This document shows, one piece after another, positions 53,624-64,000 of a stretch of 64,000 nucleotides of DNA. Source of the DNA: Flagellimonas hymeniacidonis (GTDB lineage: Bacteria; Bacteroidota; Bacteroidia; Flavobacteriales; Flavobacteriaceae). The position numbers were made by a program, and so were the translations under genes. Below the pieces are notes generated by a model. That model was not told the DNA's origin. It ran no database searches and saw only the letters and a program-made list of their open reading frames with translations. The stretch spans positions 930,001 to 994,000 of the forward strand of contig NZ_VRUR01000002.1 in assembly GCF_008040165.1 (NCBI RefSeq), written 5' to 3'. Numbering within the stretch: position 1 is the stretch's first letter; the number at the start of each line of letters is the position of its first letter.

Positions 53624-54820
53624 ATGTTTAAAAAAATAGGGCCGGGAGTCTTGGTGGCAGCGGCTTTCGTTGGTCCAGGGACAATAACGGTATGTACATT
53701 AGCGGGGGTTCGTTTTGGATACACCCTCGTTTGGGCTGTTCTTCTATCCATCTTGGCGACTATAATACTTCAAGAAATGGCAGGGAGAATTGGTGTAATT
53801 TCTCAAAATGGGCTTGTTGATGTAATAAAGGAAGAACTCAAAATAAAGTGGATAAAAAATACTGTCATTGGAATTGTATTGGGAGCCATACTTATTGGCA
53901 ATGCTGCATATGAAGCTGGTAACATAGGCGGCGCAACTCTTGGACTTGAGGGTTTATTGGGCGAAACCGTTCTAAGTACTTTTTTCCCCGCTATTATAGG
54001 TTTTTTTGCTTTTCTACTATTATGGTTTAGTAGTTACAAAACACTAGAAAAGATATTTGTTGGACTAGTTGGTATTATGGGAGTATGTTTTGTGGTCTCT
54101 GCCATTATCACCAAACCATCTTTAATTGCCATTGCCAAAGGAATGTTTGTCCCCAAACTTCCAGAAGGGAGTTTATTAATGGTAATTGCTTTGGTAGGGA
54201 CAACCGTGGTCCCGTACAATCTGTTTTTGCATGCCTCTTTGGCCAAAGAAAAATGGAAGTCCAAAGACCAATTAAGTGCTGTTAAATGGGATACTGTTAT
54301 TTCAATTGCTTTAGGCGGAATTGTTTCAATAGCAATAGTAATTACAGCTAGCGCTGCACCAATACAAGAAGTTGGCAATGTAATGGATATGGCAAAAGGT
54401 TTAGAGCCTTTATTTGGAAAAGGAGCTATTTATTTTATGGGGATAGGTCTTTTGGCCGCAGGAATAACTTCAGCTATAACAGCCCCATTGGCCGCCGCTT
54501 TTGTAGCGAGCAGCTGTTTTGGCTGGGATGGCGGTATGAAAAGTAAAAAGTTTAAACTTACCTGGTTCATAGTGTTGTTTTTGGGAGTTTTCTTTTTGTC
54601 TTTCGATATAAAACCAATCCAGGTAATACAGTTTGCCCAAGTTGCCAATGGTATATTGCTACCTGTGATGGCTATGTTATTGCTGTGGATAGTCAATAAA
54701 AAATCTGTAATGGGAGAATTTAAGAATACATTATTGCAAAATATTTTTGGAGTACTGATTGTTGGGTTTGCCATATTTTTGGGAGCGAAAAGCATTTTAA
54801 AAGTAATCGGCTGGTTCTAG
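53624..54820 (+). CDS. NRAMP-family transporter lacking the metal-binding motifs
   Basis: A 398-residue protein with about 11 transmembrane helices and the NRAMP fold. Helix 1 reads FVGPGTITVCTLAGVRFGY: the canonical DPGN metal motif is GPGT (residues 17-20). Helix 6 reads GTTVVPYNLFLHASL: canonical M-P-H is V196-P197-Y198. With Asp, Asn, Met and His all replaced, Mn/Fe transport is unlikely. It is one base upstream of pxpA and heads the 5-oxoprolinase operon, like ycsG in the ycsF-kipI-kipA cluster of Bacillus subtilis. Uptake of 5-oxoproline or another organic solute is inferred, not shown. Confidence 0.85.
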   Translation: MFKKIGPGVLVAAAFVGPGTITVCTLAGVRFGYTLVWAVLLSILATIILQEMAGRIGVISQNGLVDVIKEELKIKWIKNTVIGIVLGAILIGNAAYEAGNIGGATLGLEGLLGETVLSTFFPAIIGFFAFLLLWFSSYKTLEKIFVGLVGIMGVCFVVSAIITKPSLIAIAKGMFVPKLPEGSLLMVIALVGTTVVPYNLFLHASLAKEKWKSKDQLSAVKWDTVISIALGGIVSIAIVITASAAPIQEVGNVMDMAKGLEPLFGKGAIYFMGIGLLAAGITSAITAPLAAAFVASSCFGWDGGMKSKKFKLTWFIVLFLGVFFLSFDIKPIQVIQFAQVANGILLPVMAMLLLWIVNKKSVMGEFKNTLLQNIFGVLIVGFAIFLGAKSILKVIGWF

Positions 54821-55564
54821 ATGAAAGAATTTAGTATTGATATCAATTGTGATGTTGGGGAAGGTATTGGGAACGAGTCTGAACTTCTTCCTTTAATAAG
54901 TTCATGCAACATAGCCTGCGGAGGACATGCAGGAGACATTTCAAGCATTACTGAGGTAGTCAAACTGGCAAAATTGCATAAGGTAAAGATTGGTGCACAT
55001 CCTTCATATCCTGACAAAGCTAATTTTGGTAGAGAAATAATGAATATTCCATACTCAAAATTAAAGGAGAGTCTCAAAGACCAACTTAAGACTTTTGAAG
55101 ATGTGCTTCAACAGGAGAAAGCTAAGTTCAGTCATATAAAAGCCCATGGTGCTCTGTATAACCAAACAGCAAAAGATAGCGAATTGGCCTTTCATTATTT
55201 AGAGGTCATACAGCAGTATAAAGATTTCGCTTCATTATATGTTCCATATGGTTCGAAGATTGCAAAACAAGCTTTGGATGCAGGATTCAAAATAATGTAT
55301 GAGGCGTTTGGAGATAGAAACTACACAGATAACTTAAGTCTGGTTTCTCGAAAACACGATAATGCTCTTATACAAAATCCTCAGAAAGTATTGAAACATA
55401 TTCTTTCTATTATAAAAGAAGGTAAGGTAATTACCAATAGCGGAAGAAAAATCGAAATACATGCTGAAACAATTTGTATTCATGGGGATACTTCCTCAGC
55501 ATTGGAAATATTGATGTATCTTTCAAATGAATTACCCAATCACAGCGTACAGCTACAAAAGTGA
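54821..55564 (+). CDS. pxpA: 5-oxoprolinase subunit A (LamB/YcsF family)
   Basis: A 247-residue protein. PxpA with PxpB and PxpC hydrolyses 5-oxoproline to glutamate with ATP, clearing damaged glutamine/glutamate by-products. Signature: DINCDVGEGIGNE at the N-terminus, CNIACGGHAGD, KIGAHPSYPDKANFGR and VKAHGALYN-type HIKAHGALYN, with a terminal ICIHGDTSSALEI. All are canonical YcsF residues and the length is standard. The start follows the NRAMP-like stop directly, and the end overlaps pxpB (GTGA). Confidence 0.94.
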   Translation: MKEFSIDINCDVGEGIGNESELLPLISSCNIACGGHAGDISSITEVVKLAKLHKVKIGAHPSYPDKANFGREIMNIPYSKLKESLKDQLKTFEDVLQQEKAKFSHIKAHGALYNQTAKDSELAFHYLEVIQQYKDFASLYVPYGSKIAKQALDAGFKIMYEAFGDRNYTDNLSLVSRKHDNALIQNPQKVLKHILSIIKEGKVITNSGRKIEIHAETICIHGDTSSALEILMYLSNELPNHSVQLQK

Positions 55565-56295
55565 AGAGTTACCCCATAAGAATAAGACCATATGGTAAGC
55601 ATGCCGTTCTAGTAGAATGGCCAAATTTGGTAGACAAATCTATTTTAGAAGATATTCTTGCGTTTGTGGACTGTTTTAAAAGTCTGAATTTACCAGGATG
55701 GGAAATGTCAGCTGCCTATAATTCATTAACCATGGTCAATCACTTAGGAGAAATTGACTATGGGCACATCAAGAAATTGATTGATGAGTGCCATTCCAAA
55801 AAAACAAAAACTAGTAACAGAACAGAGCGGTATTTATGGCGAATACCAGTTTGTTATGATTTGGATTTTGGGATTGATATCGAAGAAACAAGTGCAACTT
55901 TGGGTCTATCTGTAAAAAAACTGATAGAATTGCATACTTCTTTTGAATATACGGTTTATGGAATTGGATTTTTACCTGGATTTATGTACTTAGGAGGATT
56001 ACCTGAAGACTTAGAAATTCCAAGGCGAAAAGAACCCAGATTAAACGTAGCCAAGGGTTCTGTTGGGTTGGCTGGAAAACAAACAGGGATATATCCTCAA
56101 GACTCCCCTGGAGGTTGGAATATTATTGGAAGCTGCCCCGTTTCAATATTTAATCCTGATTTGGAAAAACCATGTTTTGTAAATGTTGGGGACAAAATCC
56201 AATTTTATAAAATATCCAGTGCCGAGTACGATTTACGAAAAATAGAAGGTGAGGTTGGTATTTACAAGCCAGAAAAAACAATACTGAATGCTTAA
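55561..56295 (+). CDS. pxpB: 5-oxoprolinase subunit B (KipI family)
   Basis: A 244-residue protein with the allophanate-hydrolase-subunit-1/KipI fold. Key stretches are IRPYGKHAVLVEW, the proline-containing IPVCYDLDFGID segment, YGIGFLPGFMYLGGLPEDL, PRRKEPRLNVAKGSVGLAG and TGIYPQDSPGGWNIIG. It starts with GTG overlapping the pxpA stop. In B. subtilis the homologue was first described as the kinase A inhibitor KipI; the enzymatic role in 5-oxoprolinase is the better-supported one. The 3' end overlaps pxpC by 8 bases. Confidence 0.93.
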   Translation: MKSYPIRIRPYGKHAVLVEWPNLVDKSILEDILAFVDCFKSLNLPGWEMSAAYNSLTMVNHLGEIDYGHIKKLIDECHSKKTKTSNRTERYLWRIPVCYDLDFGIDIEETSATLGLSVKKLIELHTSFEYTVYGIGFLPGFMYLGGLPEDLEIPRRKEPRLNVAKGSVGLAGKQTGIYPQDSPGGWNIIGSCPVSIFNPDLEKPCFVNVGDKIQFYKISSAEYDLRKIEGEVGIYKPEKTILNA

Positions 56296-57127
56296 AGTAC
56301 TAAAATCTGGTTTTTTTGTGACCATCCAAGATTTGGGGCGATTTGGATATAGAGATATAGGTGTTCCAGTTTCTGGGGTCATGGATCAAATTTCCGTTAA
56401 AAAAGCCAATAAGCTTTTAGACAATAAGCCAGAAGCTGCCGTAATGGAAATAGCCATGACGGGTCCTACTTTGCTATTTGAATCTCCAACATATATTTGT
56501 TTATCCGGAGCATATCTCTCCCCTGCACTAAACAATAAGCCCATTGAAAACAATAAGGTTATCAAAGTTTTAAAAAGCGATGTTTTGTCTTATGGGCGAC
56601 TTGAAGAAGGATTTAGAAGCTACTTGGCCGTTAAAGGAGGTTTTAAAACAAAGAAGGTTTTAGGAAGCTATTCCCAGTATTTTCCAGTTACAGAAAATAA
56701 GTGCCTTGAAGATGGTAACGAAGTGCTCTTTGATGAGACCGTTTCTTTTAATCCGTTGTTGTCGGGTATTAAGATGGAAAACCACTTAAAGTTAGCCGAT
56801 TTGGAAGTATATAGAGGGCCTGAATTTGAACTTTTGACGGATCAACAGCTGGCATCACTTTTTTCAAAACCTTTTACAGTTTCAAAAGCCAACAATCGTA
56901 TGGCATATCAACTGTCAGAGCTTATAGCGGGACATAAAGAGTCTATGTTGACCTCTGGGACATTGCCTGGAACAGTGCAACTTACCCCAGCGGGGAGGTT
57001 AATAATTTTAATGAAAGACGGACAAACAACAGGGGGTTACCCGCGGATACTTCAACTATCTGAAACTTCAATTTGTGTATTGGCTCAAAAAAAGTTCGGA
57101 GATTCTATTTCATTTACGCTGCAATAA
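56288..57127 (+). CDS. pxpC: 5-oxoprolinase subunit C (KipA family)
   Basis: A 279-residue protein, a little shorter than many PxpC proteins (about 290-330). Signature: the biotin-dependent-carboxylase-like N-terminus VLKSGFFVTIQDLGRFGYRD, then GVPVSGVMDQISVKKAN, LSGAYLSP, YLAVKGGF and the C-terminal TSGTLPGTVQLTPAGRLIIL and TTGGYPRILQL. Final subunit of the PxpABC complex; the gene ends the operon and is convergent with a nitroreductase gene 7 bases away. Confidence 0.93.
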   Translation: MLKVLKSGFFVTIQDLGRFGYRDIGVPVSGVMDQISVKKANKLLDNKPEAAVMEIAMTGPTLLFESPTYICLSGAYLSPALNNKPIENNKVIKVLKSDVLSYGRLEEGFRSYLAVKGGFKTKKVLGSYSQYFPVTENKCLEDGNEVLFDETVSFNPLLSGIKMENHLKLADLEVYRGPEFELLTDQQLASLFSKPFTVSKANNRMAYQLSELIAGHKESMLTSGTLPGTVQLTPAGRLIILMKDGQTTGGYPRILQLSETSICVLAQKKFGDSISFTLQ

Positions 57128-57134
57128 AGGAAGA

Positions 57135-57863
57135 TTATATTTTCTTGTATACCTCTTCAAATGGTATTCTAAAACGGGGGCCGTAAATCCCTTTTTCATC
57201 ACGAATCCCACATCCTATGACCATATTGATTTCGGCGCCAATCGGTAAATCCAATATTCGTCTTATTCTCAAGGTATCACTGCCTTCCATAGGGCAGGTA
57301 TCATAACCAATCGCTGCCATGCTAATCATAAAGTTTTCTGCTGCCAATCCTGCGCTTTTATGTGCCACTATACGCATATCCGAATTTCGTACTTGTCGAT
57401 AAACAGGTTTAAAAATTCCCAAAATTTGAAAAACAGCGTATTTCATCCACCCAAGCAGCCCAAAAAAGTCAAAATAAACAGTAGGGATAAGTTTGCGGTA
57501 ATAATTAAGGGCAAACTTTTCTCTTGAGGTATAAGAATCTTTAGGTTTCTTTCCATAGGCCGATTCCAGAAAATCAAGATTATGCTTCGCTCTTTTACGC
57601 CATAAGTCCTTACGGGAAATCACTACGACCATTTGTTGTGCTGTTTTGGCAGCATTTTGACCCAGACAGGCTTTTGTCATTTTTGCTAAAATAGCTTTGT
57701 CAATAACATGGTAGAATTCCCATAATTGCATATTACTGCTAGTGGGTGCCAAGACGGCATTTTCAATACATTGTCTTACTTTTTCAATATCCAGTATGGT
57801 GTCATTTTTAAAAACACGAACAGAACGTCGATATTGAATTGCTTGGGTAACGGTTTTTTCCAT
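57135..57863 (-). CDS. nitroreductase family flavoprotein
   Basis: A 242-residue FMN-dependent oxidoreductase. The N-terminal QAIQYRRSVRVFKND holds the FMN-phosphate arginines (RRSVR), followed by NAVLAPTSSNMQLWEFYHV (APTSSNxQ-W-F). Later AENFMISMAAIGYDTCPMEG and LDLPIGAEINMVIGCGI are also typical. It reduces quinones, flavins or nitro compounds with NAD(P)H in the cytosol; the physiological acceptor is unknown. A family-atypical central insert (about 95-150, KPKDSYTSREKFALNYYRKL...) is somewhat hydrophobic. Divergent from the ilv leader. Confidence 0.85.
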   Translation of the reverse strand: MEKTVTQAIQYRRSVRVFKNDTILDIEKVRQCIENAVLAPTSSNMQLWEFYHVIDKAILAKMTKACLGQNAAKTAQQMVVVISRKDLWRKRAKHNLDFLESAYGKKPKDSYTSREKFALNYYRKLIPTVYFDFFGLLGWMKYAVFQILGIFKPVYRQVRNSDMRIVAHKSAGLAAENFMISMAAIGYDTCPMEGSDTLRIRRILDLPIGAEINMVIGCGIRDEKGIYGPRFRIPFEEVYKKI

Positions 57864-57915
57864 ATTGCTAAAGATACCTAATGTGGTTTTATAATTTTTT
57901 TTGTACTATTGAATT

Positions 57916-57972
57916 GTGAAAGCAAAAAATCTGATTAATAGTGTGGTCATTATTGTTCCTCTTTGGGAGTGA
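57916..57972 (+). CDS. ilv operon leader peptide (attenuation)
   Basis: A short GTG-initiated frame encodes MKAKNLINSVVIIVPLWE and then TGA. The run Val-Val-Ile-Ile-Val followed by Pro-Leu is what a branched-chain amino-acid attenuator leader contains; with the earlier Leu-Ile, eight of 18 residues are Leu, Ile or Val. An in-frame TGA just upstream (57910-57912) leaves the GTG as the only usual start codon. It lies in the only stretch over 300 bases without a protein-length gene (57864-58222), 19 bases before a perfect terminator hairpin and 250 bases before ilvD. Charged-tRNA shortage for Val/Ile would stall ribosomes here. Confidence 0.8.
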   Translation: MKAKNLINSVVIIVPLWE

Positions 57973-58008
57973 TACAGATTTGCTATTAATCAAAAAAAGC
58001 CTGTATCA
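57970..58008 (+). promoter_or_regulatory. antiterminator of the ilv attenuator
   Basis: TGATACAG (57970-57977) overlaps the leader stop codon and pairs perfectly with CTGTATCA (58001-58008), the 5' arm of the terminator. The two folds exclude each other. A ribosome stalled on the Val/Ile codons leaves 57970-57977 free, so the antiterminator forms; a ribosome that reaches the stop codon covers it, allowing termination. Confidence 0.75.
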
Positions 58009-58031
58009 AGCAAATGATACAGGCTTTTTTT
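57992..58031 (+). terminator. intrinsic terminator of the ilv attenuator
   Basis: Seven A then GCCTGTATCA (57992-58008), loop AGCAAA, then TGATACAGGC and seven T (58015-58031). The stem is a perfect 17 bp including the A/U tract. It sits between divergent genes, where an ordinary gene-end terminator has no role; this supports attenuation in the ilv leader RNA. Confidence 0.88.
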
Positions 58032-58222
58032 ATGCTCCACAAAATAAATGAATATGGGATTTTAAATTGATTTAAATATTTGAATATCAATTAGATATAT
58101 CAATATTAATTTAAATGAATTTAGAACCTGTATAACTGTTAAAATTATTGAGTTTTGGAAACATCTATCTTTGGTTATTGGAGTAAATTCAACAAAAACC
58201 TGGATTTGAAAGAAATGTATTA

Positions 58223-59899
58223 ATGGAATTGAACAAGTATAGTAAAAATGTAACCCAAGACCCAACACAACCAGCCGCACAGGCCATGTTGTACGCTATT
58301 GGATTAACAGAAGAGGACCTTAAAAAGCCTTTAATCGGAATTGGAAGTACAGGCTACGAGGGCAATCCTTGTAATATGCACTTGAATGAATTGTCCACTT
58401 ATGTAAAAGAGGGAACGCAACAAGGTGATTTAGTCGGGTTAATATTTAATACTATTGGAGTTAGTGATGGCATTTCTATGGGAACATATGGTATGCGTTA
58501 TTCCCTTCCATCTCGAGATATCATAGCAGATTCTATGGAAACCGTGGTTCAAGCAATGAACTATGATGGTTTAGCAACGGTTGTTGGATGCGATAAAAAT
58601 ATGCCAGGAGCTTTAATGGCTATGATTCGTTTAGATAGGCCTTCAATCTTGGTATACGGAGGAACGATTGCATCTGGCTGTTTGAAGGATAAAAAATTGG
58701 ATGTCGTATCTGCATTTGAAGCTTGGGGACAGAAAGTCGCAGGTACTTTGAATGAAACTGATTATAAAAGCGTGATTCAAAATGCGTGCCCTGGGGCTGG
58801 AGCCTGTGGGGGCATGTACACAGCAAACACTATGGCCTCTGCTATTGAAGCGTTGGGTATGGCACTGCCCTATAATTCATCCAACCCAGCCGTTGGAGAT
58901 AGAAAAAAACAGGATTGTATTGCCTCAGGTAAGGCATTAAAACATTTACTGGAGCATGATATCAAACCAAGTGATATCATTACCAAAAAATCTTTGGAAA
59001 ACGCTGTTAGGCTAATAACCATTTTAGGTGGCTCAACAAATGCAGTACTTCATTTCTTGGCCATTGCCAAAGCTGCTGAAATTGAATTTGGATTAGAAGA
59101 TTTTCAACGAATTAGTGATACCACTCCATTCTTGGCAGATTTAAAACCAAGTGGGAAGTACCTCATGGAAGATTTACATAGCGTAGGAGGAGTTCCAGCA
59201 GTAATGAAATTTATGCTTAAGCATAATATGTTGCATGGCGATTGTCTTACCGTTACTGGAAAGACCATAGCCGAAAATTTGGCAGAAGTAGCTGATTTAA
59301 CAGAAGGGCAGAAGGTGGTTATGGGCCTTAACAACCCGATTAAAGATACTGGCCATCTTAGAATACTTTATGGTAATCTAGCTATCGAAGGAGCTGTTGC
59401 TAAGATTACGGGTAAAGAAGGATTGCATTTCTCAGGACCGGCAAAAGTTTTTGAAGGTGAATTTGATGCCAATGACGGTATACGTGATGGATTGGTGAAA
59501 AAAGGTGATGTGGTGGTAATTCGCTATGAAGGACCAAAAGGAGGTCCTGGTATGCCAGAAATGCTGAAGCCAACAGCGGCCATAATGGGAGCTGGTTTAG
59601 GAAAAGACGTAGCCTTGATTACCGATGGAAGATTTTCTGGGGGGACACATGGCTTTGTTGTAGGGCATATAGCTCCGGAAGCTCAAGACGGAGGAGCTAT
59701 TGGATTAATACAAGATGGCGATATCATTACCATTGATGCCGAAGCAAATAGCATTTCTGTCGATATTTCAGATGAAGAATTAGCGAGCAGAAAAGCAAAA
59801 TGGGTACAACCACCCTTAAAGGTGAAAAAAGGAAGTCTATACAAATACGCCAAAACAGTTTCTTCGGCCTCCCAAGGTTGTGTTACTGATTTGATTTAA
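58223..59899 (+). CDS. ilvD: dihydroxy-acid dehydratase
   Basis: A 558-residue iron-sulfur enzyme that dehydrates 2,3-dihydroxy-3-methyl acids, the third step of valine and isoleucine synthesis. The cluster cysteines lie in [24 protein letters not shown] and [21 protein letters not shown]-terminal catalytic segments include [12 protein letters not shown] and [17 protein letters not shown], whose Ser is the catalytic base in the family. First structural gene of the operon. The 191 bases between the attenuator and the ATG contain a TATCTTTG box (58166-58173) but no clear -33 element. Confidence 0.96.
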
Positions 59900-59951: not shown

Positions 59952-61685
59952 ATGGAAACATTGAGAGCACAAAAAAAGGAAAGTAAAAAGAAAACCCCAA
60001 TAAGAATAAGTGGGGCAGAAGCCATAATACATTGCTTGTTGGCAGAGGGTGTGGATTTGATTTATGGATATCCTGGAGGGGCCATTATGCCTGTGTATGA
60101 TGAACTTTATAAGTTCCAGGACAAGTTAACGCACATCCTTACAAGACATGAACAAGGCGCTACGCATGCTGCTCAAGGCTATGCTCGTGTAAGTGGAAAA
60201 GTTGGAGTGGCCATGGCGACCTCGGGGCCTGGTGCTACAAATCTAGTTACGGGAATTGCAGATGCTCAGATAGACTCAACACCTATGGTATGCATTACGG
60301 GACAGGTACCAAGACATTTGTTGGGCTCAGATGCTTTTCAGGAAACTGATATTGTTGGAATTTCCACACCCGTTACCAAATGGAACTACCAAATTACAAA
60401 GGCTAGCGAGATTCCAGAAATAATGGCTAAAGCATTTTATATTGCAAGGTCAGGTAGGCCAGGCCCGGTCCTAATTGATATTACTAAAAATGCTCAGTTT
60501 GATGAATTAGACTTCGCCTATGAAAAATGCACTGGGGTACGTAGTTACAAACCTGTTCCAGAACCAGACTTAAAGGCCATTGAAGCTGCGGCATCATTGA
60601 TCAATAATGCTAAAAAACCTTATATCGTATTTGGACAGGGGGTAATATTGGGCGAAGCAGAGGCAGAACTCAAAGCTTTAGTAGAGAAAGCCGGTATTCC
60701 AGCAGCATGGACTATTTTGGGACTTTCTGCAATGGATACAGATCACCCCTTAAATGTAGGAATGGTAGGTATGCATGGCAACTATGGGCCAAACGTATTG
60801 ACCAATGAATGTGATGTGCTTGTTGCTATTGGGATGCGTTTTGATGATAGGGTTACGGGGAGTTTGGATACCTATGCCAAACAAGCTAAGGTAATTCATC
60901 TTGAGATTGACCCAGCCGAAATCAATAAAAATGTAAAAGCTGATGTGGCAATTTTAGGAGATGCTAAGCAGACACTGGATTTATTATTACCACTTGTTAA
61001 AAAGAATGACCATAGCGAATGGAAAAATGAGTTTGATAAAAAATATCAGATTGAATATGACACCGTCATTAAAAATGATATAACCCCTACTAAGGAGGGA
61101 CTTACTATGGGGGAGGTCATTGAACAAATCAATATTGCATCAGAACACAAGGCAGTAATTGTAACCGATGTAGGACAACACCAAATGATTGCTTGTAGGT
61201 ATGCCAAGTTCAAACAATCCAAAAGCAATATTACCTCCGGAGGGCTAGGAACTATGGGTTTTGCTTTACCAGCAGCTATTGGTGCTAAAATGGGAGCTAT
61301 GGATAGAGAAGTGGTTGCTATTGCAGGTGACGGAGGGTATCAAATGACCATTCAAGAACTTGGAGTCATCTTTCAGCATAATGTGCCAGTTAAAATAGTC
61401 GTTTTAAATAATGACCATTTAGGAATGGTGCGTCAATGGCAAGAACTTTTCTTTGAAAGCAGATACGCTTCTACCGTAATGACAAACCCTGACTTTGTAA
61501 AGATTGCAGAGGGGTACCATATTAAATCTAGAAGGGTAGTGGAGCGCTCAGATTTGAAGGATGCCGTTACAGAGATGATTGCTTCCAAAGATCCATACTT
61601 TTTAGAAGTTAAGGTTGAAAAAGAAGATAATGTATTCCCAATGATTCCTTCAGGAGCATCGGTTTCAGATATCAGGCTCAAATAA
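59952..61685 (+). CDS. ilvB: acetolactate synthase large subunit
   Basis: A 577-residue thiamine-diphosphate enzyme that forms acetolactate or acetohydroxybutyrate, the committed step. The N-terminal Pyr domain holds the catalytic glutamate E67 in LTRHEQGATHAAQGYAR. The central FAD-type domain follows (about 200-340), and the C-terminal PP domain binds TPP-Mg through IAGDGGYQMTIQELGVIFQHN and VVLNNDHLGMVRQWQE. A lysine-rich start (AQKKESKKK) precedes the fold. It lies 52 bases after ilvD and ends one base before the methyltransferase gene. Confidence 0.95.
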   Translation: METLRAQKKESKKKTPIRISGAEAIIHCLLAEGVDLIYGYPGGAIMPVYDELYKFQDKLTHILTRHEQGATHAAQGYARVSGKVGVAMATSGPGATNLVTGIADAQIDSTPMVCITGQVPRHLLGSDAFQETDIVGISTPVTKWNYQITKASEIPEIMAKAFYIARSGRPGPVLIDITKNAQFDELDFAYEKCTGVRSYKPVPEPDLKAIEAAASLINNAKKPYIVFGQGVILGEAEAELKALVEKAGIPAAWTILGLSAMDTDHPLNVGMVGMHGNYGPNVLTNECDVLVAIGMRFDDRVTGSLDTYAKQAKVIHLEIDPAEINKNVKADVAILGDAKQTLDLLLPLVKKNDHSEWKNEFDKKYQIEYDTVIKNDITPTKEGLTMGEVIEQINIASEHKAVIVTDVGQHQMIACRYAKFKQSKSNITSGGLGTMGFALPAAIGAKMGAMDREVVAIAGDGGYQMTIQELGVIFQHNVPVKIVVLNNDHLGMVRQWQELFFESRYASTVMTNPDFVKIAEGYHIKSRRVVERSDLKDAVTEMIASKDPYFLEVKVEKEDNVFPMIPSGASVSDIRLK

Positions 61686-61686
61686 G

Positions 61687-62268
61687 ATGGATCAGACCAA
61701 TATTTTAGATGCACCAAGTGTGTATCCAAAACTACTAATCAAGTCACAAGAGACTGGGTTTTCTATGCCTTCCGATGTATATATTGGAACGCTGTTGAAA
61801 ACATTGATAGCCTCCAAACCCAAAGGAAAATTTCTGGAATTGGGTACAGGCATTGGACTTTCCCTTTCATGGATGCTAGAAGGGATGGATGAAGATTCCC
61901 AGATAATAAGTGTAGATAACGATGAGAAGCTGATAGCAATAGCGCAAGACTTCTTTGGAGAAGAAAAAAGACTTTGCTTGGTATGTGATGATGGCGAAGC
62001 TTGGTTGTCCCAAAATCAAGATGAACGATTTGATTTGATTTTTGCGGATGCATGGCCAGGAAAGTATAGTTGTTTAAATAAGGTGTTGTCCTTGGTTAAA
62101 CCCGGAGGCTTCTATGTGATTGATGACATGGTAGCACAACCCAATTGGCCAGATGGACATGAAGAAAAGGCGATTGAACTGGTTAAAATATTAGAGGAAA
62201 AAGAAAATTTTACGATAACTAAAATGAACTGGTCTACAGGAGTACTGGTTGCGGTTAAAACAAAATAG
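61687..62268 (+). CDS. class I SAM-dependent O-methyltransferase-like protein
   Basis: A 193-residue protein with a Rossmann methyltransferase fold of the O-methyltransferase type. The SAM motif I is GKFLELGTGIGLSLSWMLEG, acidic motif II is IISVDNDEKL, and the post-I region has FDLIFADAWPGKY and a VKPGGFYVIDDM segment. It is packed between ilvB and ilvN (1- and 2-base gaps), splitting two subunits of one enzyme, so it is surely co-transcribed. The substrate is unknown; a role linked to branched-chain keto acid metabolism is speculation. Confidence 0.8.
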   Translation: MDQTNILDAPSVYPKLLIKSQETGFSMPSDVYIGTLLKTLIASKPKGKFLELGTGIGLSLSWMLEGMDEDSQIISVDNDEKLIAIAQDFFGEEKRLCLVCDDGEAWLSQNQDERFDLIFADAWPGKYSCLNKVLSLVKPGGFYVIDDMVAQPNWPDGHEEKAIELVKILEEKENFTITKMNWSTGVLVAVKTK

Positions 62269-62270
62269 AC

Positions 62271-62798
62271 ATGGAAAATCAATGGTATACCATTTCGGTT
62301 TATTCAGAAAATAATATTGGATTGCTCAATAGAATATCTGGAATATTCTTAAAGAGACACATTAACATAGAAAGCCTAAACGTCTCTAAATCAGAAATTG
62401 AGGATGTTTCAAAATTTACTATTGTAATTTTCGCCACTGAAAATTGGGCAAGAAAGATTGTACAACAAATAGAGAAGCAAGTTGAGGTAATAAAAGCATA
62501 TTATCATACAGATGATGAGACCATTTATCAAGAGTCCGCTTTGTTTAAAATAGCGTCCAATTTACTGTTTGATGAACGACAGATTCAAAACATTATCAAG
62601 GAAAGTAACTCGCAAATTGTTACAGTGGCCAGAGACTTTTTCGTGTTGTCCAAAACCGGGCGCCGGCATGAGATAGATGAAATGCACGATGCTCTGGAGC
62701 CATATGGCATTATGCAGTTTGTACGCTCAGGAAGGATTGCAGTCAGCAAGGCTACAATGCCCATTACCAATATTTTAGCAGAATTTCAAAATCAATAA
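62271..62798 (+). CDS. ilvN: acetolactate synthase small (regulatory) subunit
   Basis: A 175-residue subunit. The N-terminal ACT domain (about 4-78) contains TISVYSENNIGLLNRISGIF and INIESLNVSKSEIEDVSKFT, the site where valine usually binds for feedback inhibition. The C-terminal domain (about 90-165; VTVARDFFVLSKTGRRHEID, GIMQFVRSGRIAV) contacts the large subunit. Length is typical. It activates IlvB and confers valine sensitivity. Confidence 0.94.
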   Translation: MENQWYTISVYSENNIGLLNRISGIFLKRHINIESLNVSKSEIEDVSKFTIVIFATENWARKIVQQIEKQVEVIKAYYHTDDETIYQESALFKIASNLLFDERQIQNIIKESNSQIVTVARDFFVLSKTGRRHEIDEMHDALEPYGIMQFVRSGRIAVSKATMPITNILAEFQNQ

Positions 62799-62822: not shown

Positions 62823-64000
62823 ATGACAAATTACTTTAATACACTGTCGCTGCGTGATAAACTGACACAACTTGGGAAATGTAGATTTATGGATTCCAAT
62901 GAATTCGCTGATGGCGTCGCGGCACTAAAAGGGAAAAAGATTGTAATTGTTGGATGTGGGGCACAAGGTCTAAATCAAGGATTGAACATGAGAGATTCTG
63001 GATTGGATATTTCGTATACCCTTCGGGAATCGGCCATTAAAGAGCAGCGTCAATCCTTTAAAAACGCCAAAGAGAACAATTTTAATGTGGGTACCTATGA
63101 AGAACTAATCCCTACCGCGGATTTGGTTATCAACCTTACCCCAGATAAGCAGCATACCAATGTGGTGAGCACTGTGATGCCCTTGATGAAAAAAGGAGCT
63201 ACGCTTTCCTATTCCCATGGCTTTAATATTGTGGAAGAAGGAATGCAGATTCGAAAAGATTTAACCGTAATAATGGTAGCACCTAAAAGTCCAGGTTCGG
63301 AAGTACGGGAAGAGTACAAAAGAGGCTTTGGTGTACCGACGCTAATTGCTGTGCATCCTGAGAATGATCCTGAAGGAAAAGGTTTGGAGCAAGCAAAAGC
63401 TTATGCAGCCGGTACCGGTGGACACAAAGCAGGAGTTTTGGAATCATCTTTTGTGGCTGAAGTAAAATCAGATTTAATGGGAGAGCAAACCATTCTTTGT
63501 GGATTGTTACAGACGGGTTCCATCTTATCTTTTAACAAAATGCTGGAAAAAGGTATTGATGCTGGTTATGCTTCCAAATTAATTCAGTACGGATGGGAAA
63601 CCATTACCGAAGGATTAAAACAAGGTGGAATAACCAACATGATGGATAGACTTTCCAATCCTGCTAAAATTAAAGCATTCGATTTGGCTGAAGAACTAAA
63701 AGGTATTATGCGTCCACTGTTTCAAAAGCATATGGATGATATTATGAGCGGACATTTTTCTAAAACCATGATGGAAGATTGGGCTAATGCAGATAAGAAC
63801 CTATTGGATTGGCGTGCAGCAACTGGCGAGACTTCTTTTGAAAAGACTCCAGCCGGGAGCAATGAAATTTCTGAGCAGGAATACTATGACAATGGTGTTT
63901 TGATGGTAGCTTTTGTAAAATCTGGAGTTGAACTAGCCTTTGAAACCATGACAGAATCAGGAATCATTGGAGAGTCTGCATATTATGAATCGTTACATGA
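62823..64000 (+). CDS. ilvC: ketol-acid reductoisomerase (3' end outside window)
   Basis: The frame opens at ATG 62823 and runs to the window edge without a stop (392 codons). It isomerises and reduces acetolactate with NADPH, the second step of the pathway. The nucleotide-binding loop is [20 protein letters not shown], followed by [45 protein letters not shown] and the metal-binding [15 protein letters not shown]. The length so far and the second helical domain indicate the long class II form (about 490 residues). It starts 24 bases after ilvN and completes the ilvD-B-N-C set. Confidence 0.95.

Follow-up and report, generated by a model that had tools for sequence, protein, structure and literature searches.

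A probable ribosome-mediated attenuator and a predicted second promoter upstream of the ilvD-first operon of Flagellimonas hymeniacidonis

Introduction

Does a ribosome translating a short leader peptide decide whether RNA polymerase enters the ilv operon of Flagellimonas hymeniacidonis? The ilvGMEDA and ilvBN operons of E. coli have leader-peptide attenuators. Bacteroidota lack Shine-Dalgarno sequences, so that ribosomes of Flavobacteriaceae and some neighbours begin translation independently of them, and these bacteria also have an unusual primary sigma factor. The question is raised whether ribosomes can be loaded fast enough for attenuation under such conditions; a leaderless leader would be a testable answer. 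The locus considered here lies in a 64,000-nucleotide stretch of the genome (the window), and an original prediction, made from the letters alone, had placed a complete attenuator of the enterobacterial kind in front of ilvD.

Transcript maps of F. psychrophilum are reported to hint strongly at leader-peptide attenuation ahead of amino-acid operons (PMC9723704, section 19). As leader-peptide attenuation has already been inferred in flavobacteria, the attenuator described here is a known kind of system. F. psychrophilum belongs to the same family and the same mechanism was inferred there, with structured elements before hisG and pheA being named; in the accessible portion of that account, however, 'ilv' is absent from the main text and neither a three-strand switch nor leaderless leaders are described (PMC9723704). 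Leader-like sORFs are also mentioned in Bacteroides 5' UTRs in the accessible part of another report (PMC7366714). No description of a Bacteroidota ilv attenuator was recognised in the literature searched, most subscription journals lying outside its coverage. The earlier comparative surveys of Vitreschak (2004) and Lopatovskaya (2010) may already include such an attenuator.

Materials and Methods

For comparison, 234 ilvD upstream sequences, each at most 700 nt long, were collected: 80 named loci (the best 80 of at least 594 relatives), 30 from a search of 59 relatives, 29 from a search of 149 family genomes and 95 further ones from both searches. L081 is the window itself, L003/L120 and L006/L128 are apparent duplicates, L180 comprises 36 bases and was unused, and L195, L089 and L076 have less than 600 nt upstream. 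The attenuator detector looked for a terminator together with a short ORF having at least 5 I/L/V in 7 residues, the ORF stop lying at most 75 nt before the stem or inside its 5' arm. The 28 same-genus genomes with an attenuator, the window among them, form alignment A1. The model of the operator-like block was built from the ilvD copies of alignment A2, which comprises 66 of 69 block sequences, L015, L203 and L219 having been dropped as poor matches. Stalled ribosomes were modelled with assumed footprints of -16 and +11, +13 or +15 nt (+13 in the window-only model), and the antiterminator was scored as formed when at least 5 of 7 pairs were present in the nascent fold.

Results

The leader ORF, its Val-Val-Ile-Ile-Val codons and the segments able to form an antiterminator lie where the original prediction had placed them (Table 1). 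The GTG-started ORF encodes MKAKNLINSVVIIVPLWE; TGATACAG includes its UGA stop and can pair with CTGTATCA. As claimed, the hairpin is situated between divergent genes, namely a nitroreductase-family gene (57135-57863, minus strand) and ilvD. The terminator called for one correction: the 17-bp stem is present but the 'seven-T tail' is not a tail, T7 being the 3' end of the stem itself. The stem consists of a 10-bp GCCTGTATCA core extended by A7/T7, with arms at 57992-58008 and 58015-58031 and a 6-nt loop, AGCAAA. The marks of an attenuator are thus found together at the locus: (i) tandem Val/Ile codons, (ii) a terminator before ilvD and (iii) a mutually exclusive antiterminator sharing a strand with it.

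When perfect arms of 9-13 bp, a loop of 3-8 nt and at least 6 adjoining T were required, the locus hairpin was the sole one of its kind in the window, at the same place on both strands. The fold of 57916-58040 reaches -44.9 kcal/mol against -21.9 +/- 3.4 in shuffles (z = -6.9). Five consecutive I/L/V codons occur in 17 of the 2367 short ORFs of the window (10-31 codons, nested starts counted separately). A terminator scan gave 2 sites against 0.8 expected, one of them an overlapping 5-bp minus-strand hairpin; the plus-strand hairpin, whose stem includes the T run, was unlisted.

The genes that follow ilvD on the same strand would make up an ilvDBNC operon with ilvA (Table 1), and leuA-leuB sit elsewhere in the genome, apart from it. 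Some kb beyond ilvA, a second leuB-like gene and a citramalate-synthase-like gene are found on the opposite strand (L321:12348-15022). On the other side of the locus, 53624-57127 holds an Nramp-type transporter gene and then the 5-oxoprolinase genes pxpA, pxpB and pxpC.

Table 1. Predicted control elements and genes of the ilv locus (window positions, unless another stretch is named)
Feature	Position	Strand	Remarks
P1, predicted -7 box TACTATTG	57904..57911	+	predicted start 57916, first base of leader start codon
Leader peptide ORF MKAKNLINSVVIIVPLWE	57916..57972	+	GTG start; 18 codons
Control codons Val-Val-Ile-Ile-Val (codons 10-14)	57943..57957	+	modelled stalls leave antiterminator formed
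1:2 hairpin (anti-antiterminator)	57932..57992	+	fold -20.6 kcal/mol; inner helix 57951-57974
Antiterminator strand 2, TGATACAG	57970..57977	+	overlaps stop codon of leader
Strand 3, CTGTATCA	58001..58008	+	common to antiterminator and terminator
Intrinsic terminator	57992..58031	+	10-bp core and A7/T7; -22.2 kcal/mol for 57990-58031
Operator-like block, TTGAAYATSATA ~N13 TTAAAnAnyTGATAAnCAG family	58047..58093	+	predicted, between terminator and P2
P2, predicted -7 box TATCTTTG	58166..58173	+	downstream of terminator; predicted start near 58178
ilvD, dihydroxy-acid dehydratase	58223..59899	+	NCBIfam TIGR00110, 739.8 bits, over cut-off
ilvB, acetolactate synthase large subunit	59952..61685	+	TIGR00118, 719.4 bits
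O-methyltransferase-like ORF between ilvB and ilvN	61687..62268	+	Pfam PF01596, 45.3 bits
ilvN, acetolactate synthase small subunit	62271..62798	+	TIGR00119, 105.4 bits
ilvC	62823..63998	+	runs off window; TIGR00465, 399.4 bits
ilvA	L321:336-1601	same as ilv genes	next in same genome; TIGR02079, 630.5 bits
Block copy	L315:5240-5276		conserved block common to ilvD P2 and leuA

The leader Ile/Val codons, the terminator and the alternative pairing are kept in relatives, as the original prediction had expected of a working attenuator. The detector was positive in 121 of the 234 ilvD upstream regions, compared with 5 of the 234 reverse complements and 3 of the 702 dinucleotide shuffles; the 121 include L021, L044, L056, L094, L144 and L195, where the ORF it picked was wrong or doubtful. 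Among the named loci, the best 80 of at least 594 relatives, 30 were positive; they include Flavobacteriaceae, Saprospiraceae, Elizabethkingia, a Segetibacter MAG and one Ignavibacteriae MAG, binning errors being possible in the MAGs. A culturable relative, Arenibacter latericius DSM 15913 (L023), has the element with its terminator at a distance from ilvD. The attenuator was undetected in 113 of the 234 regions, including those of 7 of the 35 genus genomes; in some negative regions, coding sequence extends up to ilvD, as judged by eye. In the genus, the leader has 18 codons in 27 of the 28 genomes and 19 in one, through a 3-nt in-frame insertion. In the leaders of 115 of the 121 loci, Ile makes up 28% of the residues, Val 15.5% and Leu 6.2%, a composition that fits an operon of ilvDBNC and ilvA, with leuA-leuB located elsewhere.

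Base-pair conservation differs between the three helices. In the 28 genomes, the 13 counted terminator pairs are paired in 100% of cells and two of them switch between A-U and G-C; cells changed on both sides number 17 against 5.2 in shuffles, and the count of pairs changed on both sides is in no excess (2 against a shuffled mean of 1.9). The inner 1:2 helix is paired in 96.4% of cells, with 10 both-side-changed cells against 2.3 and, again, no excess of pairs so changed (2 against 1.5). Because the genus sequences are related, these shuffles overstate significance. Seven of the eight antiterminator pairs are kept in 28 of 28 genomes and the eighth in 13 of 27, with no compensatory change in the 28 genus genomes and an uninformative shuffle control, so that this conservation is by itself neutral. 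The covarying arms that had been anticipated are thus found, to a modest degree, in the terminator and the 1:2 helix but not in the antiterminator.

Since the terminator arms differ between lineages, arms were permuted among loci rather than placed in one cross-lineage alignment, using 112 of the 121 loci (the six loci with a wrong or doubtful ORF being left out together with three more that were duplicate or too short). The segment at the stop codon matches the arm class of its own locus: the summed pairing with own arms was 1594.5 against 1304.6 +/- 26.1, and none of 5000 permutations scored as high. In the arm class of the window, this segment fits arms of its own class but not those from other lineages. 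The preference is mainly driven by the CCTGTATC arm class (16.8 with its own class, 9.2-10.3 with others); in the CCTTCC class it is weak (12.2 with its own class, 10.5-11.6 with others), and the small classes CTCCC (5 loci) and CTTTC (7 loci) do not show it. It holds between classes only, same-class arms of other loci giving 14.6 and own arms 14.2.

In a midpoint-rooted ilvD tree of 37 tips, shown without support values and covering 29 of the 35 genus genomes, the attenuator-less sequences form two groups, the second of which encloses one carrier, L113. Provided that this tree is correct, the attenuator was lost at least twice, or lost and regained.

Modelling of stalled ribosomes reproduced in silico the classic logic of stalling and antitermination claimed for this leader. 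On the window RNA, a masked ribosome (-16/+13) with its A site at any of codons 10-14 left the antiterminator as the nascent fold, and from codon 15 onwards the antiterminator was lost. When the model was applied to the 28 genomes, a ribosome stalled 9 to 5 codons ahead of the stop, where the codons are mostly Val/Ile, let the antiterminator form in 26-28 of them with each of the three footprints; a ribosome on the stop or on either of the last two codons did so in 0 of 28. Many stalls from 13 to 10 codons ahead of the stop likewise freed it (13-28 of 28), and for the Pro codon, 4 codons ahead of the stop, the outcome depended on the footprint (26, 21 or 0 of 28). In the model, then, a stall at the control codons frees the antiterminator and a ribosome at the stop codon blocks it. 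The antiterminator is the weaker structure (-10.1 against -22.2 kcal/mol), and on the window RNA the terminator wins in every modelled stall once the RNA extends to 58031. The choice of the antiterminator must therefore be kinetic, the terminator prevailing as soon as its 3' arm exists.

How would the leader be transcribed and translated? In 27 of the 28 genus genomes, exactly 4 nt separate the end of a TAnnNTTG box (P1) from the start codon of the leader; the 4 spacer bases vary and the start codon is ATG in 21 and GTG in 7. The sigma-A box occupies -12 to -5 in F. psychrophilum, according to the accessible part of its transcript maps (PMC9723704), so the start is predicted on the first base of the start codon. 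By this spacing, the leader transcript is probably leaderless; leaderless mRNAs are given as 5.5% in F. psychrophilum (PMC9723704). P1 is off consensus at one base in the window, a -33 element is absent by eye, and a sigma-70 scan was uninformative (6 found, 5.0 expected). Of 90 leaders outside the genus, 4 have such a box at a distance of 4 nt and 7 at a distance of 5 nt. A survey of 118 of the 121 loci showed that other clades have 5-of-6 box matches at 8-12 nt upstream of the leader, or full matches at 18-22 nt. The leaderless reading is thus a prediction limited to this genus and a few others.

Downstream of the terminator, TATCTTTG is an exact match to the TAnnTTTG consensus and marks a second predicted promoter, P2. 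All 35 genus genomes, including the 7 that lack an attenuator, have an exact TAnnTTTG ending 20-70 nt before ilvD. In the whole set of loci, the box is present in 48 of the 104 whose terminator is distant, where two control intervals gave 3 and 2, and in 36 of the 113 without a detected attenuator, against 6 and 2 in controls. It is present in 2 of 17 loci whose terminator is close to ilvD, where the terminator fills that interval and the attenuator may serve alone. A transcription start downstream of 58031, which the original prediction had counted against itself, is therefore a live possibility in the form of a second promoter, and the attenuator would stand unrefuted beside it as one of two routes.

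Between the terminator and P2 lies a predicted operator-like block, which we treat as a DNA element because 0 RNA pairs are predicted in it. In the window the block is degenerate, and its position comes from the model match (27 bits). A strict pattern for the first part of the block matches 63 of the 234 regions within the last 260 nt before ilvD; as controls, the opposite strand gave 1 of 234, shuffles 4 of 702 and sequence lying further upstream 0 of 231. The pattern occurs in 33 of the 121 loci with an attenuator and in 30 of the 113 without. All 9 genus genomes searched have a copy of the block before leuA, at a distance of 113-162 nt (E 2.2e-5 to 0.017); outside the genus, a copy precedes leuA in one other genus (G151, E = 5.2e-4). 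It was not established upstream of leuA in four of six further genomes searched (G084, G123, G195 and G204), of which G123 had no ilvD match at the threshold used for the 149 family genomes. The model yields 21-33 matches per genome at E up to 1, so many of these must be due to chance; five other stretches with block matches (L316, L317, L319, L320 and L322) contained no leuA, leuB or ilvD by tblastn.

Discussion

Comparative conservation and stall modelling support the interpretation given in the original prediction: we consider it highly probable that the region upstream of ilvD is a ribosome-mediated transcription attenuator. A predicted second promoter would bypass it. RNA polymerase would start at P1, at or beside 57916, and a ribosome would translate the 18-codon leader. 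When charged Val- or Ile-tRNA is short, the ribosome would stall on codons 10-14 and cover strand 1; strand 2 (57970-57977) could then pair with strand 3 (58001-58008), the terminator would not form in time, and the polymerase would read into ilvD-ilvB-(methyltransferase)-ilvN-ilvC-ilvA. When charged tRNA is plentiful, the ribosome would reach the stop codon and cover strand 2, allowing the 3:4 terminator to form. If the leader is not translated, 1:2 and 3:4 would form and transcription would likewise stop. P2, with the operator-like block it has in common with leuA, would provide transcription independent of attenuation, and the ilv operon very likely has two inputs.

The weight of each input can be read in another way. 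The attenuator may be real but minor, most ilv transcription coming from P2 under a DNA-binding regulator shared with leuA and P1 adding a starvation-induced increment. The exact P2 box throughout the genus, its enrichment over control intervals, its persistence in the 7 of 35 genus genomes devoid of an attenuator and the occurrence of the strict block pattern in loci with and without an attenuator all point this way; the retention of leader frame and helices in 28 genus genomes and the near absence of the exact P2 box from near-terminator loci speak against it. On balance, we regard a minor attenuator as a possible reading, though somewhat doubtful.

In addition, the leader transcript that would end near 58031 might have a function in trans, either as a small RNA or as a small peptide. 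There is a precedent in rnTrpL and peTrpL of S. meliloti, made from a leaderless leader mRNA (PMC7298713, as far as its accessible part goes), but in the 28 genus genomes the leader peptide varies except in the Val/Ile run and the last codons, and a role in trans seems improbable. That the hairpin is a plain premature terminator or a bidirectional one, the short ORF being coincidental, would agree with its being readable on both strands; this is hardly credible in view of the detector controls, the constant 18-codon frame whose sole length change is in frame, and the lack of any plus-strand gene of at least 80 codons between 57127 and 58223. Equally hard to sustain is a ligand-binding riboswitch, T-box or protein-binding attenuator with an incidental ORF, which an intrinsic terminator within a structured 5' region could suggest: no T-box or ppGpp riboswitch is among the 12 cmscan matches in 57000-59000 at E up to 1, and the arms diverge between lineages while the Ile/Val codons remain. 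None of these 12 Rfam matches attains its gathering score, Thr_leader giving 29.8 bits on the plus strand (57941-58033) and 31.0 bits on the minus strand for a gathering score of 55.

The ribosome-mediated attenuator preferred here resembles E. coli ilvGMEDA and ilvBN in its consecutive Ile/Val codons, in a stop codon next to the antiterminator strand and in a terminator before the first gene. It differs from them in the distance of 4 nt between the predicted -7 box and the start codon, too short for a 5' UTR with a Shine-Dalgarno sequence, in having few Leu codons, in an ilvD-first operon and in a predicted second promoter past the terminator. The Corynebacterium ilvB leader (ilvB-II motif) likewise combines a uORF rich in branched-chain amino acid (BCAA) codons, a terminator and an antiterminator before an ilv operon, and in C. 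diphtheriae transcription starts at the leader start position, making it leaderless, as described in the accessible parts of three reports (PMC10272879, PMC5784534, PMC11857589); Corynebacterium, however, belongs to another phylum, its sequence is different and ilvB comes first. In Sinorhizobium meliloti trpL, the 5' end of the attenuator RNA is the ATG of the leader ORF, but there it serves the tryptophan operon and encodes a 14-aa peptide with a role in trans (PMC7298713, accessible part).

On comparative evidence that reaches the level of base pairs, these results extend a textbook switch to ilv operons in Flavobacteriaceae and some neighbouring groups. The newer parts are predicted ones, namely the leaderless start and the block shared by ilvD and leuA, the latter offering a concrete handle on a BCAA regulator in Bacteroidota. 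It is tempting to combine them in a single scheme, which in our estimate stands at even chances: a leaderless, promoter-locked attenuator would be followed by P2 under an undescribed DNA-binding regulator that also controls leuA-leuB, and ribosomal sensing of Ile/Val and a separate BCAA regulon would meet within about 300 bp, each being gained or lost independently. At leuA itself, reading of the upstream sequences of 14 loci revealed no leader-terminator pair in an attenuator layout; a weak hairpin is seen in 2 of the 14, and short ORFs with 4-6 I/L/V of 7 exist.

Leader peptides seem to be a general device in the genus, since they also precede hisG and thrA. A His-run leader and a terminator are found before hisG in 14 of 14 same-genus loci (15 genomes searched, one without a hisG match), and a Thr-rich leader before thrA in 14 of 14 (11 of the 14 recovered by pattern).

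Some details of these leaders are worth recording. In the hisG loci (L239 and 13 others, L236-L249), the His leader reads MRNNNTHHHHFYTCTQAR in the window's genome and the terminator is CCCGTTTGAGAAATCAARCGGG in 14 of 14; by eye, a -7 box lies about 7-8 nt before the ATG, which would give a very short 5' UTR. Near the thrA leaders (L264-L277, including L269), no ordinary terminator was seen. The leader ends in TTPLG* in 14 of 14 loci, ACCCCTTTGGGGTA lies over the stop in the 11 displayed, and in many loci pairing would be possible between AAACGGA, ahead of the ORF, and TCCGTTT, behind it, an unusual layout.
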